Assembly: GCF_002277025.1 (NCBI RefSeq)
Contig: NZ_NIWD01000008.1
Span: 782,333 to 846,332, forward strand
DNA: 64,000 nucleotides
Source: Sphingopyxis sp. GW247-27LB
Lineage (GTDB): Bacteria; Pseudomonadota; Alphaproteobacteria; Sphingomonadales; Sphingomonadaceae
Direction of reading: 5' to 3'
Shown: positions 14,727-40,341 of the stretch, one piece after another
How the letters are laid out: the number at the start of each line of letters is the position of its first letter
Numbering within the stretch: the first letter of the stretch is position 1
Notes under the pieces: model-generated
The model's database searches: none
Told to the model about the DNA's origin: nothing
What the model saw: the letters and a program-made list of their open reading frames with translations, nothing else
Made by a program: the position numbers and the translations under genes

Positions 14727-15953
14727 TCATCGCGTCACGAGGCCGTGCTTTTTGGCACCCAGGCTGACCGGAACCGGCTCGTCGGCGGGCTGGATCAGGT
14801 GGTGCGGGTCGCGGATCACGACGCCGCCCGCCTTCACCGCGCCCTCGTCGAGCTTGCGCCGCGCTTCCTTGTTCGAGGCCGCGAAGCCGAGCTCGCGCAG
14901 CGCGTCGAGGATGCGCAGCCCTTCGGCGGGCGCCGCAACCTGGGGCAGATCGCCGCCGATATGGCCCTTTTCAAAGGTTTGCGTCGCGGTCTCGGCGGCG
15001 GTTCGCGCCGCTTCGGCGCCGCGGCACATCGCGGTCGCCGCATTCGCGAGGATCTTCTTCGCCTCGTTGATCTCGGCGCCCTCGAGCGCTTCGAGCCTTG
15101 CGATCTCGTCGATCGGCAGATCGGTGAACAGCTTCAGGAAGCGCCCGACGTCGCGGTCGTCGCAGTTGCGCCAATATTGCCAATAGTCAAAATGGGACAG
15201 TTGATCGGCATTTAACCAGACCGCGCCGGCGGCGGTCTTGCCCATCTTCGCGCCCGCGGCGGTGGTCAGCAGCGGTGTGGTCAGGCCATAGAGCTCGGCA
15301 CCGTCCATCCGGCGGCCGAGCTCGACGCCGTTGACGATATTGCCCCACTGGTCCGATCCGCCCATCTGGAGCCGCACCCCCATGTCCTTCGACAAATGAC
15401 GGAAATCATAGCCCTGCAGGATCATATAGTTGAATTCGAGAAAGGTCATCGGCTGCTCGCGATCGAGCCGCAGCTTCACCGAATCGAAGGTCAGCATGCG
15501 GTTGATCGTGAAATGCGTTCCGACCTCCTGCAACAGTTCGATATAGCCAAGCTGCCCCAGCCAGTCGTGGTTGTTGACCATCGCCGCGTCGGTCGGCCCG
15601 TCGCCAAAGGTCAGGAAAGGTTCGAAGATCGTGCGGATCGAGGCGATATTATCCTCGATCGCCTGATCCGACAGCATCTTGCGGCTTTCGTCGCGCCCGG
15701 TGGGGTCGCCGATCCGCGTCGTTCCGCCACCCATCAGCACGACGGGCTTGTGCCCCGTCTGTTGCAGGCGGCGCAGCATCATGATCTGGACGAGGCTGCC
15801 GACGTGCAGGCTGGGCGCGGTTGCGTCGAACCCGATATAGGCCGGGACGACCTGCTTCGCTGCGAGAGCATCGAGCCCTTCCGCATCGGTCATCTGGTGG
15901 ATATAGCCTCGCTCGTCGAGCAGGCGCAGCAGGTCGGATTTGTAAGTCGTCAT
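14727..15953 (-). CDS. tyrS: Tyrosyl-tRNA synthetase
   Basis: A 408-aa class I synthetase. It shows the Rossmann core with HVGSL (HIGH motif, near residue 45), tyrosine-specific YMILQGYDF and GGSDQWGNI, the KMSKS-equivalent KMGKTAAGA, and a C-terminal S4-like RNA-binding domain. The ATG at 15953 was chosen; a longer reading runs into a repeat and has no plausible sequence. Confidence 0.96.
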
Positions 15954-16003: not shown

Positions 16004-16044
16004 CCCGTTCGCCCTGAGCTTGTCGAAGGGCCGTTCTTCCCTTT
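16004..16044. repeat. Left inverted arm (family B) enclosing the GIY-YIG gene
   Basis: About 41 bp with core CTGAGCTTGTCGAAGG and ending TTCTTCCCTTT. Its inverted partner is at 16322-16362. The same pair of arms occurs at 18174-18261 around only about 15 nt. Confidence 0.9.
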
Positions 16045-16055
16045 ACACGATCCCG

Positions 16056-16373
16056 ATGACCTTTTGGGCCTATATCTTGCATTGTCGGGGTGGAGCCTTT
16101 TACACCGGTCATACGGACAATCTTTCCCACCGCGTTGGCCAGCACGAAACAGGCGCAATTCCGGGCTTTACAGCAGATAAATTGCCCGTGACGCTCGTGT
16201 GGAGTCAGGAATTCCCGACGCGGATCGAGGCCTTGGAGGCGGAACGCCGAATCAAAGGATGGAGCCGTGCTAAGAAAATGGCATTGGTCCGGGGCGATTG
16301 GGACAGGATTTCGAGCTTGGCAAAAGGAAAGAACGGTCCTTCGACAAGCTCAGGACGAACGGAGGAGGACTAG
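16056..16373 (+). CDS. Solitary GIY-YIG nuclease (UPF0213/YhbQ-like)
   Basis: A 105-aa protein consisting of one GIY-YIG domain. AYILHC and FYTGHT are the GIY and YIG strands, LSHRVGQH holds the catalytic Arg region, and [18 protein letters not shown] carries the metal-binding Glu, as in the UrbC/SLX1-like single-domain group. The start is an ATG at 16056, 12 nt inside the left repeat arm. Residues from about 90 onward ([12 protein letters not shown]) are encoded by the right repeat arm, and the stop lies just outside it. Gene plus arms form one compact cassette between tyrS and the DOMON-like gene. Confidence 0.88.
16322..16362. repeat. Right inverted arm (family B) enclosing the GIY-YIG gene
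   Basis: About 41 bp beginning AAAGGAAAGAACGG with core CCTTCGACAAGCTCAGG. It is the inverted counterpart of 16004-16044 with a few mismatches. It is translated as the nuclease's C-terminal tail. Confidence 0.9.
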
Positions 16374-16943
16374 GTGTCCAACCATCAGGAGAGCCGTCTG
16401 CTCTCCCTTATGTGCCATCCCGACACGCCGGCAAAGGCTGTCCGGTCGACAAGCGTCGAGGTGTCGCTGTCCTTCGACGACGGCTTCGTGCTCCGCTTCG
16501 TCGTCGAGGGCGAGATCGACCGCATCGTCCTGCCCGCGGGCGACGGGCAACTCGTGATCGCCGACGGCGCGACCGACGGGTTGTGGCAGGGCACATGCTT
16601 CGAGGCCTTCCTGACCGAGGACGGCACCCCCGATTATACCGAATTCAACTATGCGCCCGATGGCCGCTGGGCCTGTTACCAGTTCGACGATTACCGCTCG
16701 CTGCTCGGACCCGACGATCTGGCGCCGTGGGACATGGCCGCCGAACGCGAGCCGGCGCGCTATGCGCTGCGCGTCGAGCCCGGCATCTTTCCCGATCGCG
16801 GCAGCAAGCTCGCCCTCTCCGCGGTCATCGAGGAAACCGACGGCACCAAAAGCTATTGGGCGCTATGCCATCCGCCGGGGAAACCCGATTTCCATCATCC
16901 CGATTGCTTTAGGCTGACGCTTGGGGCACCCGACCCGGCATGA
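16374..16943 (+). CDS. DOMON-like domain protein
   Basis: A 189-aa protein resembling the sphingomonad 'DOMON-like' family: a beta-sandwich with LWQGTCFEAFL and YTEFNYAPDGRWACYQFDDY. Some DOMON domains bind haem or sugars; no ligand can be assigned here. A GTG immediately after the nuclease stop gives the longest form; family members usually start close to the CHPDTP motif, so a start near residue 12 (ATG at about 16410) is possible. The stop overlaps the next gene's ATG. Confidence 0.75.
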   Translation: MSNHQESRLLSLMCHPDTPAKAVRSTSVEVSLSFDDGFVLRFVVEGEIDRIVLPAGDGQLVIADGATDGLWQGTCFEAFLTEDGTPDYTEFNYAPDGRWACYQFDDYRSLLGPDDLAPWDMAAEREPARYALRVEPGIFPDRGSKLALSAVIEETDGTKSYWALCHPPGKPDFHHPDCFRLTLGAPDPA

Positions 16944-18173: not shown

Positions 18174-18261
18174 CCGTTCGTGCTGAGCTTGTCGAAGCAC
18201 CGTCCTTACTTGCTGCGTCAAAAGGAAGAACGGCCCTTCGACAAGCTCAGGGCGAACGGGG
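18174..18261. repeat. Family B hairpin repeat without a gene
   Basis: Two inverted arms (18174-18207 and about 18221-18261) enclose about 15 nt. They match the arms of the GIY-YIG cassette in sequence and orientation, so this is the 'empty' form. It lies between the NamZ-like gene and the M24 peptidase gene. Confidence 0.9.
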
Positions 18262-19529: not shown

Positions 19530-19532
19530 ATT

Positions 19533-19565
19533 CCCCTCCCTTCAGGGAGGGGCCAGGGGTGGGTT
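19533..19565. repeat. Left inverted repeat (family D) enclosing the DUF559 gene
   Basis: Palindrome CCCCTCCCTTCAGGGAGGGG followed by CCAGGGGTGGGTT, starting 3 nt after the M24 peptidase stop. An inverted copy lies at 19948-19982. Confidence 0.85.
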
Positions 19566-19598: not shown

Positions 19599-20006
19599 AT
19601 GCGCCGTATTCCCGAGACCATGACCGGCCGCGCGCGGCGATTGCGCCGGGAAGCCACACCGGCCGAACGCAAGCTCTGGGGCCTTATCTCACGCTATCGT
19701 CCCAAGTTCACGCGCCAACTCGTTGTCGGTCCCTATATCGTTGACTTTGCCTGCCGCGAAGCGAAGCTCGCAATCGAACTCGATGGCAGTCAGCATCTCG
19801 ATCAGCAGGATTATGATGAGACCCGAACCACCTTTCTGGAGTCGGGAGGCTGGCGTGTCGTCCGGATCTGGAACGTCGACGTGCTCACCAACCCCGAAGG
19901 CTCGGCCCAAATGATCCTGAAAGAAGCCGCCGAGTGCCTCGGCGGTACCCACCCCCAACCCCTCCCTTCCAGGGAGGGGAGAGCACGGCGTTCGCGTTAC
20001 GAGTGA
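19599..20006 (+). CDS. Solitary DUF559 (Vsr-like) endonuclease-domain protein
   Basis: A 135-aa protein of the PD-(D/E)XK-like DUF559 family, related to the very-short-patch repair endonuclease fold. It shows a basic N-terminus (MTGRARRLRREATPAE), GPYIVDFAC (Asp49), LAIELDGSQH (Glu60 and following), and GWRVVRIWN. Residues 117-128 (THPQPLPSREGR) are encoded by the right-hand repeat. The stop overlaps the convergent DUF817 gene by 10 bp. Like the GIY-YIG gene 3.5 kb away, it is a lone nuclease between inverted repeats. Confidence 0.85.
   Translation: MRRIPETMTGRARRLRREATPAERKLWGLISRYRPKFTRQLVVGPYIVDFACREAKLAIELDGSQHLDQQDYDETRTTFLESGGWRVVRIWNVDVLTNPEGSAQMILKEAAECLGGTHPQPLPSREGRARRSRYE
19948..19982. 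repeat. Right inverted repeat (family D) enclosing the DUF559 gene
   Basis: ACCCACCCCC followed by the palindrome CCCCTCCCTTCCAGGGAGGGG (written in two parts because the spacer AA intervenes). It is the inverted partner of 19533-19565 and is translated as part of the nuclease tail. Confidence 0.85.
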
Positions 20007-21665: not shown

Positions 21666-21748
21666 CGTCATTGCGAGCGAAGCGAAGCAATCCAGTGCGG
21701 TTTGCGCGAGCTCTGGATTGCCACGGGCCTTCGGCCCTCGCAATGACG
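21666..21748. repeat. Interspersed hairpin repeat, family A
   Basis: CGTCATTGCGAGCGAAGCG at the left, and its inverted form ending CTCGCAATGACG at the right, with inner arms pairing around TGGATTGC. It lies between the VWA gene and the Amj-like gene, both on the minus strand. Confidence 0.85.
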
Positions 21749-40238: not shown

Positions 40239-40341
40239 CGTCACCCTGAACTTGTTTCAGGGTCCATGGCCTGCCCTTGAATTGGGCGCGGCGCCGAAGG
40301 AGGGACCCGGCCATGGATGCTGAAACAAGTTCAGCATGACG
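40239..40341. repeat. Interspersed hairpin repeat, family C
   Basis: Inverted arms of about 31 bp (40239-40269 and 40311-40341) with core CTGAACTTGTTTCAG and its inverse CTGAAACAAGTTCAG enclose about 41 nt. It lies between a small membrane protein gene and the end of the exosortase-associated hydrolase gene. Confidence 0.85.

Follow-up and report, generated by a model that had tools for sequence, protein, structure and literature searches.

Stand-alone GIY-YIG nuclease genes between inverted REP arms as candidate partners of REP families in Sphingopyxis and its relatives

Among the repeat-associated enzymes described so far, RAYTs come closest to the system reported here. In the available text of Nunvar 2010 (PMC2817692) they are described as genes flanked by inverted REPs, which co-evolve with their repeats and show no IS-like multiplication of the gene, with the number of REPs depending on the presence of the cognate gene. 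CGTC repeats are a second point of comparison, and for these the accessible part of Di Nocera 2013 (PMC3733652) reports no associated transposase genes, suggests that the REPtrons have been lost and leaves open what moves the repeats; their hosts include Sphingobium and Sphingomonas types (S. chlorophenolicum and S. wittichii), and no GIY-YIG or DUF559 gene is mentioned in that part of the paper. Such genes are not mentioned either in the available portions of RepRanger 2025 (PMC12306157) and of the Bradyrhizobium repeat paper (PMC5082802), and among the matches listed in the open-access literature no link of GIY-YIG or DUF559 genes with REPs was found.

Here we describe an element from Sphingopyxis in which a nuclease gene takes the position between two inverted repeats. 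It is located in a window of 64,000 nucleotides, positions 782333-846332 of contig C1, which is the whole stretch of DNA that was analysed, and it measures 359 bp, made up of a repeat arm, a stand-alone GIY-YIG gene and the inverted arm. The features of the locus are as follows, where the family labels F1 to F6 were coined in this analysis:

14727..15953, minus strand: tyrS, the left neighbour, which defines the empty site (PF00579 and empty-site comparison)
16004..16044, no strand assigned: F1 repeat forming the left arm of the loaded element, with core CTGAGCTTGTCGAA and inner part CCGTTCTTCC (inverted repeat and genome-wide repeat)
16056..16373, plus strand: gene of a stand-alone GIY-YIG nuclease with 105 aa when started at the ATG at 16056 (PF01541, E 4.3e-14)
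16323..16362, no strand assigned: right arm of this element, an inverted copy of the left arm (inverted repeat)
16374..16943, plus strand: gene of a DOMON-like protein (so named in an earlier note on this DNA; no Pfam match), the right neighbour, which defines the empty site
18174..18260, no strand assigned: gene-free, REPIN-like pair of family F1 (inverted repeats; single-strand fold z -8.55)

The earlier note, made from the letters of the DNA, had placed the inverted arms at 16004-16044 and 16322-16362, in agreement with the computed arms at 16005-16044 and 16323-16362, which are 40 nt long, 93% complementary and separated by 278 nt. It had also pointed to a twin of the element at 18174-18261. 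This pair is indeed gene-free, with arms at 18174-18211 and 18222-18259 that are 84% complementary, but its spacer measures 10 nt and not the proposed 15 nt or so. When the two copies are compared, 98% complementarity over 41 nt is found between the left arm of the loaded one and the right arm of the empty one. As the note had claimed, the nuclease frame fills the loop with its PF01541 domain between the arms; the first ATG within the arms is found at 16056, and as the stop codon occupies 16371-16373, the right arm and a few bases beyond it code for the last residues of the nuclease. A longer nuclease would result from an alternative start, a TTG in the left arm at 16020. PF01541 is the sole Pfam domain of the protein (53 bits at a curated cut-off of 22.6), and its closest solved structures are the UPF0213 proteins 1zg2 and 1ywl, which share the same single small domain but for which no association with repeats is implied. 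No match to PF01797 was found between the arms. The enzyme is a GIY-YIG nuclease, whereas a RAYT is an HUH/Y1 transposase (PF01797). In GIY-YIG enzymes each active site hydrolyses a single strand with no covalent DNA intermediate, and no strand transfer is expected from this chemistry.

The F1 core was detected at 52 sites (up to three mismatches) in the 4.79-Mb genome, while the reversed control pattern gave 0 hits. These sites form 23 pairs within 500 bp, every one of them head-to-head, and 6 sites are unpaired. The spacing is 58-67 bp in 22 pairs and 335 bp in the remaining one, which is the gene-bearing pair. The idea of loaded and empty forms of one element, put forward in the earlier note, is thus borne out, with 22 of the 23 F1 pairs being gene-free and one holding a GIY-YIG frame. 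A comparison of 18 gene-free pairs revealed that they share an outer core, followed inwards by a CCGTTCTT-like part that surrounds a variable loop, and it is the position of this loop that the gene occupies in the loaded copy. Folded as single strand, a whole gene-free pair reaches -34 kcal/mol (z -8.55 against shuffled DNA), and a single arm folds no better than shuffled DNA (z -0.06 and 0.29). Unlike an insertion sequence, the element carries no transposase domain and only one F1 pair of 23 bears the gene. The window also contains gene-free head-to-head pairs of F3 (40247-40333) and F5 (21668-21746), with the corresponding nuclease genes being located elsewhere in the genome (L001 and L004).

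A search with PF01541 gave six matches in the source genome, namely UvrC and five stand-alone genes. All five stand-alone genes are located between inverted arms (scores 22-31), each in a different repeat family: F1 CTGAGCTTGTCGAA in the window, F3 CTGAACTTGTTTCAG, F4 CCCCGGCGAAAGCCGGGG, F5 CATTGCGAGCGGAGCGAAGCAATC and F6 CCCCGGGCTTGACCCGGGG. UvrC is found without inverted arms (score 9). The arms of F3, F5 and F6 and many of the F4 arms start with CGTC and are placed head-to-head, these elements being CGTC REPs with a gene inside, whereas the outer end of F1 is CCGTTCG and the CGTC tag is absent from it.

In order to extend this to relatives, 99 genomes of the same bacterial family were searched with PF01541, yielding 304 matches, from which 93 GIY-YIG loci of 49 genomes were taken with the best matches first (thus not at random) and with UvrC excluded; the fifth stand-alone gene of the source genome (L002), also in arms, is outside the 93. 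Arms were scored by a strict inverted-arm score within 300 bp on either side with a cut-off of 15. This cut-off was reached by 76 of the 93 loci, and 7 of the 17 loci below it scored less than 12. In the controls it was reached by 1 of 354 displaced windows (derived from 60 of the same loci), by none of 30 ParE toxin loci and by none of 21 Y1 transposase genes from genomes of the family (L147 dropped). The enrichment of such arms round other GIY-YIG genes, on which the earlier note had made its reading depend, is therefore evident (76/93 versus 1/354). These numbers also bear on chance or hitch-hiking, according to which dense intergenic REPs would often flank small genes anyway. More than 100 copies of one family are possible in these genomes, but the displaced windows, the two control families and the fixed spacing speak against it, and chance co-location, to which we assign a practically negligible probability, was rejected on the displaced windows and control families. 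The same data led us to reject a RAYT as hidden enzyme, as a Y1 transposase is present in only 18 of the 99 genomes and in 0 of 21 cases between inverted arms. On this evidence the GIY-YIG element is not a RAYT, and it works like one.

The geometry is uniform among the 76 arm-flanked loci, where the elements measure 390 bp in the median, with 370 and 403 bp as quartiles. The closest start codon in frame is found 18 nt (median) inside the left arm, and the stop codon is reached 1.5 nt (median) after the right arm has begun, with a long tail in this last value. All 93 GIY-YIG domains possess Y7, Y18, G20, R28, H32, E65 and K69, residues of the conserved GIY-YIG set for which we assume the assigned catalytic roles, and this full conservation argues for active enzymes. 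An independent set of 79 loci from named genomes, chosen by similarity to the window protein and with one contig-end locus left out, contains 62 loci with arms, of which 58 are F1, one is F2 and three are of other types. Beyond the family, arms were found at 12 of 16 loci from other Alphaproteobacteria and at 3 of 31 loci from outside this class, all three of the CGTCATTCCCGCG type; 20 loci of this wider survey had been picked so that neither the own family nor an over-represented one (f21) was included. Because of these 3 of 31 loci the GIY-YIG family as a whole is not tied to REPs, and a general rule for all GIY-YIG genes was rejected. Some further observations were made during these searches. 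Outside the Alphaproteobacteria, a clade A nuclease (see below) with F1 arms was found in a Pseudoxanthomonas genome (L356, score 30) and another one in a Thiobacillus MAG (L361, score 15), there with the arms in opposite orientation. A match was present in 44 plasmid records. At G033:C1:668039-668420 an F3 pair with 368 bp spacing holds a GIY-YIG match in two pieces, representing a decayed loaded element.

To take a closer look at the relationship between nucleases and repeats, the arm families were mapped onto a tree of the nuclease domains. Over 83 labelled loci the arm family switches 8 times, and for all seven labels 16 changes are needed compared to a mean of 56 after shuffling. As many loci share their context by descent (the 93 loci represent 49 genomic contexts, 37 of them single, with nine F3 loci in one context and eight F2 loci in another), the tree was thinned to one locus per context, which left 7 changes over 46 labelled loci, with shuffles never below 19. 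On this thinned tree F1 forms one supported clade of 16 contexts. Within F1 even the subtype of the inner arm (CGTTCTT-like or CGCGC-like, classes that were assigned by eye after the data had been seen) changes only twice over 64 loci, with shuffles never below 12. One exception is L148, which has F3 arms and a protein outside the F3 clade. Judged from these sequences, at least six repeat families have matching nuclease clades, where the earlier note saw one.

The number of repeats follows the nucleases as well. Genomes with clade A, which comprises the F1 and F2 nucleases and is cleanly separated from the rest, have a median of 33 F1 cores (33 genomes) compared to 1 in the 66 genomes without it. 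For F3 cores the median is 15 where the F3 clade is present (21 genomes) and 0 where it is absent (75 genomes), the limit of this clade being softer, with G021, G071 and G033 omitted due to their ambiguous F3 membership. In a joint regression, which ignores kinship, the cognate nucleases showed t values of 5.9 and 7.4 and the non-cognate ones of 2.2 and 3.5. There are also genomes rich in F1 without a clade A gene (G010, G054 and G061 with 91, 84 and 76 copies) and genomes with clade A in which F1 is absent (G057, G071 and G083). When the repeat number was set against the family of the sampled loci only, the relation was not family-specific. The earlier note had compared the small nuclease with RAYTs, and this likeness holds for the architecture, for the co-evolution with the repeat and for the way in which the number of repeats depends on the cognate gene. 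As far as the available parts of the RAYT literature go, RAYTs (TnpA-REP) with their GTAG REPs and REPINs share with our elements the gene between two inverted REPs and the co-evolution of enzyme and REP (PMC2817692; Bertels and Rainey 2011, PMC3116915; Corneloup 2021, PMC8266576), and likewise a repeat abundance that goes with the cognate gene and few genes next to many gene-free REPs.

We also followed the tyrS locus through the genus. The neighbour protein is present in 57 of 60 same-genus genomes, and 30 same-genus loci including the window's own were compared. Of these, 23 are empty with neither arm nor gene, the end of tyrS lying 39-74 nt before the matching part of the neighbour, which is the clean empty site that the earlier note had proposed to look for in related genomes. 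Three loci are loaded, namely the window's own, G132 and G145, the latter with a broken frame. G155 retains the two arms together with the first codons, the remainder of the gene having gone; this loss of the gene with its arms left (L215) represents an internal deletion derivative. In G137, G116 and G140 one arm is kept beside an inserted gene-free F6 pair (L210, L217 and L223), showing that different repeat families land in the same gap. From the empty, loaded, broken and arms-only states it follows that the element arrives and decays, with a gene-free pair being left. As regards the rapid evolution relative to neighbouring genes that characterises RAYTs, a comparison of this locus with G132 gave 83% for the GIY-YIG protein and 79% for the neighbour, and thus no acceleration in this one case, with dN/dS being saturated. 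MITEs and their parent insertion sequences are known as terminal inverted repeats without and with an internal gene, and our elements resemble them in having arms with and without gene and in the internal deletion derivative L215. In contrast to them no transposase is involved and no target-site duplication was demonstrated here, the flanks of the empty sites, which were examined for it, having diverged.

Two other explanations have to be considered at this point. The nuclease gene could be a parasite similar to a homing endonuclease, which invades older REP pairs that have spread by other means by cutting gene-free pairs and being copied into them during repair. Homing endonucleases are known among GIY-YIG as well as VSR-like enzymes, and the gene is located exactly in the variable loop of a pair, which counts in favour of this model. 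However, homing should fill many sites and in this genome only 1 of 23 F1 pairs is filled; the repeat number rises with the cognate nuclease, although a parasite of pre-existing repeats need not alter it; and while the gene was seen to be lost from between its arms (L215), no gene-free pair was seen to acquire one. We therefore regard homing as unlikely.

The second one is a host maintenance enzyme that trims or resolves REP hairpins stalling replication and is kept beside its substrate, with the spread of the REPs having another cause. The GIY-YIG enzyme Slx1 cuts branched DNA, which would fit such a function, as does the long retention in place of the nine F3 and eight F2 loci mentioned above. 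Furthermore, in one conserved context of ten genomes with the same clade A nuclease (L038, L039, L040, L042, L044, L045, L046, L047, L050 and L149; we take the neighbouring frames to be nrdR to trmJ) the arms are F1-like, F2-like or, at 5 of the 10 loci, not detectable, so that the gene can persist without arms and in this context may be retained for its own sake. Maintenance leaves unexplained, however, why the gene is bounded by the repeat and why both come and go together at the tyrS locus, and we give it a low probability.

We favour the explanation that the stand-alone GIY-YIG genes encode repeat-specific nucleases, each with its own REP family, in the role that RAYTs have for GTAG REPs, and we consider this probable. 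What the data show is the architecture, its specificity and spread, its gains and losses at one locus, and a repeat number that is linked to the cognate nuclease. From these we infer a function of the enzyme in moving or maintaining the repeat. In the proposed model each nuclease lineage would recognise its own REP family; the gene in the loop of one REP pair would be the loaded form, and the tens of gene-free pairs (REPINs) would be its non-autonomous, MITE-like relatives. The enzyme might nick the folded REP pair, either in its cruciform state or where single-stranded DNA at the fork forms a hairpin, and repair or replication restart at the nick might then copy the pair to new places. The nuclease gene itself would be copied rarely and mostly be inherited in place. 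The match between nucleases and repeats suggests that these enzymes are the long-missing partners of the repeats.

A second kind of nuclease was found in the same arrangement further downstream in the window:

19532..19564, no strand assigned: left arm of the second nuclease-in-repeat element, from a different repeat family, CCCCTCCCTTCAGGGAGGGG (inverted repeats; score 13, under the cut-off of 15; L372)
19599..20006, plus strand: DUF559 nuclease-like gene between the arms (PF04480, E 3.9e-33)
19947..19980, no strand assigned: right arm of the DUF559 element (inverted repeats)

In the bacterial family 28 of 30 DUF559 loci are flanked by arms that belong to a single repeat type, CCCTCTCCC...GGGAGAGGG, and in the source genome 9 of 11 reach the cut-off of 15, the copy in the window with its score of 13 being one of those below. 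That a second, unrelated nuclease is found between arms might indicate that small genes are simply cargo, carried along by recombining REP pairs, with the nuclease having an unrelated role, for example in defence. Equally small and mobile ParE toxin genes are never found there (0 of 30), though, and cargo would need no match between nuclease clade and repeat family, a match that was nevertheless found, making this explanation very unlikely. Returning to the repeat-specific nucleases, the two families can be joined in a broader model, whose chances we see as roughly balanced. GIY-YIG and the VSR-like DUF559, two unrelated hydrolytic families, would each have taken the place of a RAYT, with each lineage living in, recognising and multiplying a palindromic repeat of its own through nicks in the folded copies, which are then copied by the repair or replication of the host. 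REPs would accordingly need no transposase, and the CGTC REPs, regarded so far as orphans or relics, would be living elements served by their own, novel type of enzyme.

CGTC-type REPs belong to the commonest repeats of Alphaproteobacteria, and a candidate enzyme can now be named for at least six repeat families. With a named candidate and cognate pairs at hand, the question of what moves CGTC REPs can be put to a direct test in vitro. Should a plain nuclease be able to drive a repeat family, repeats could spread without transposase chemistry. It would also give a plausible job to the small genes annotated as 'GIY-YIG nuclease family' or 'DUF559', which by impression and not by count amount to thousands. 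Finally, two N bases are present in the source assembly at the tips of DUF559 repeat palindromes (L368 and L369), perhaps as an effect of hairpins on the assembly.
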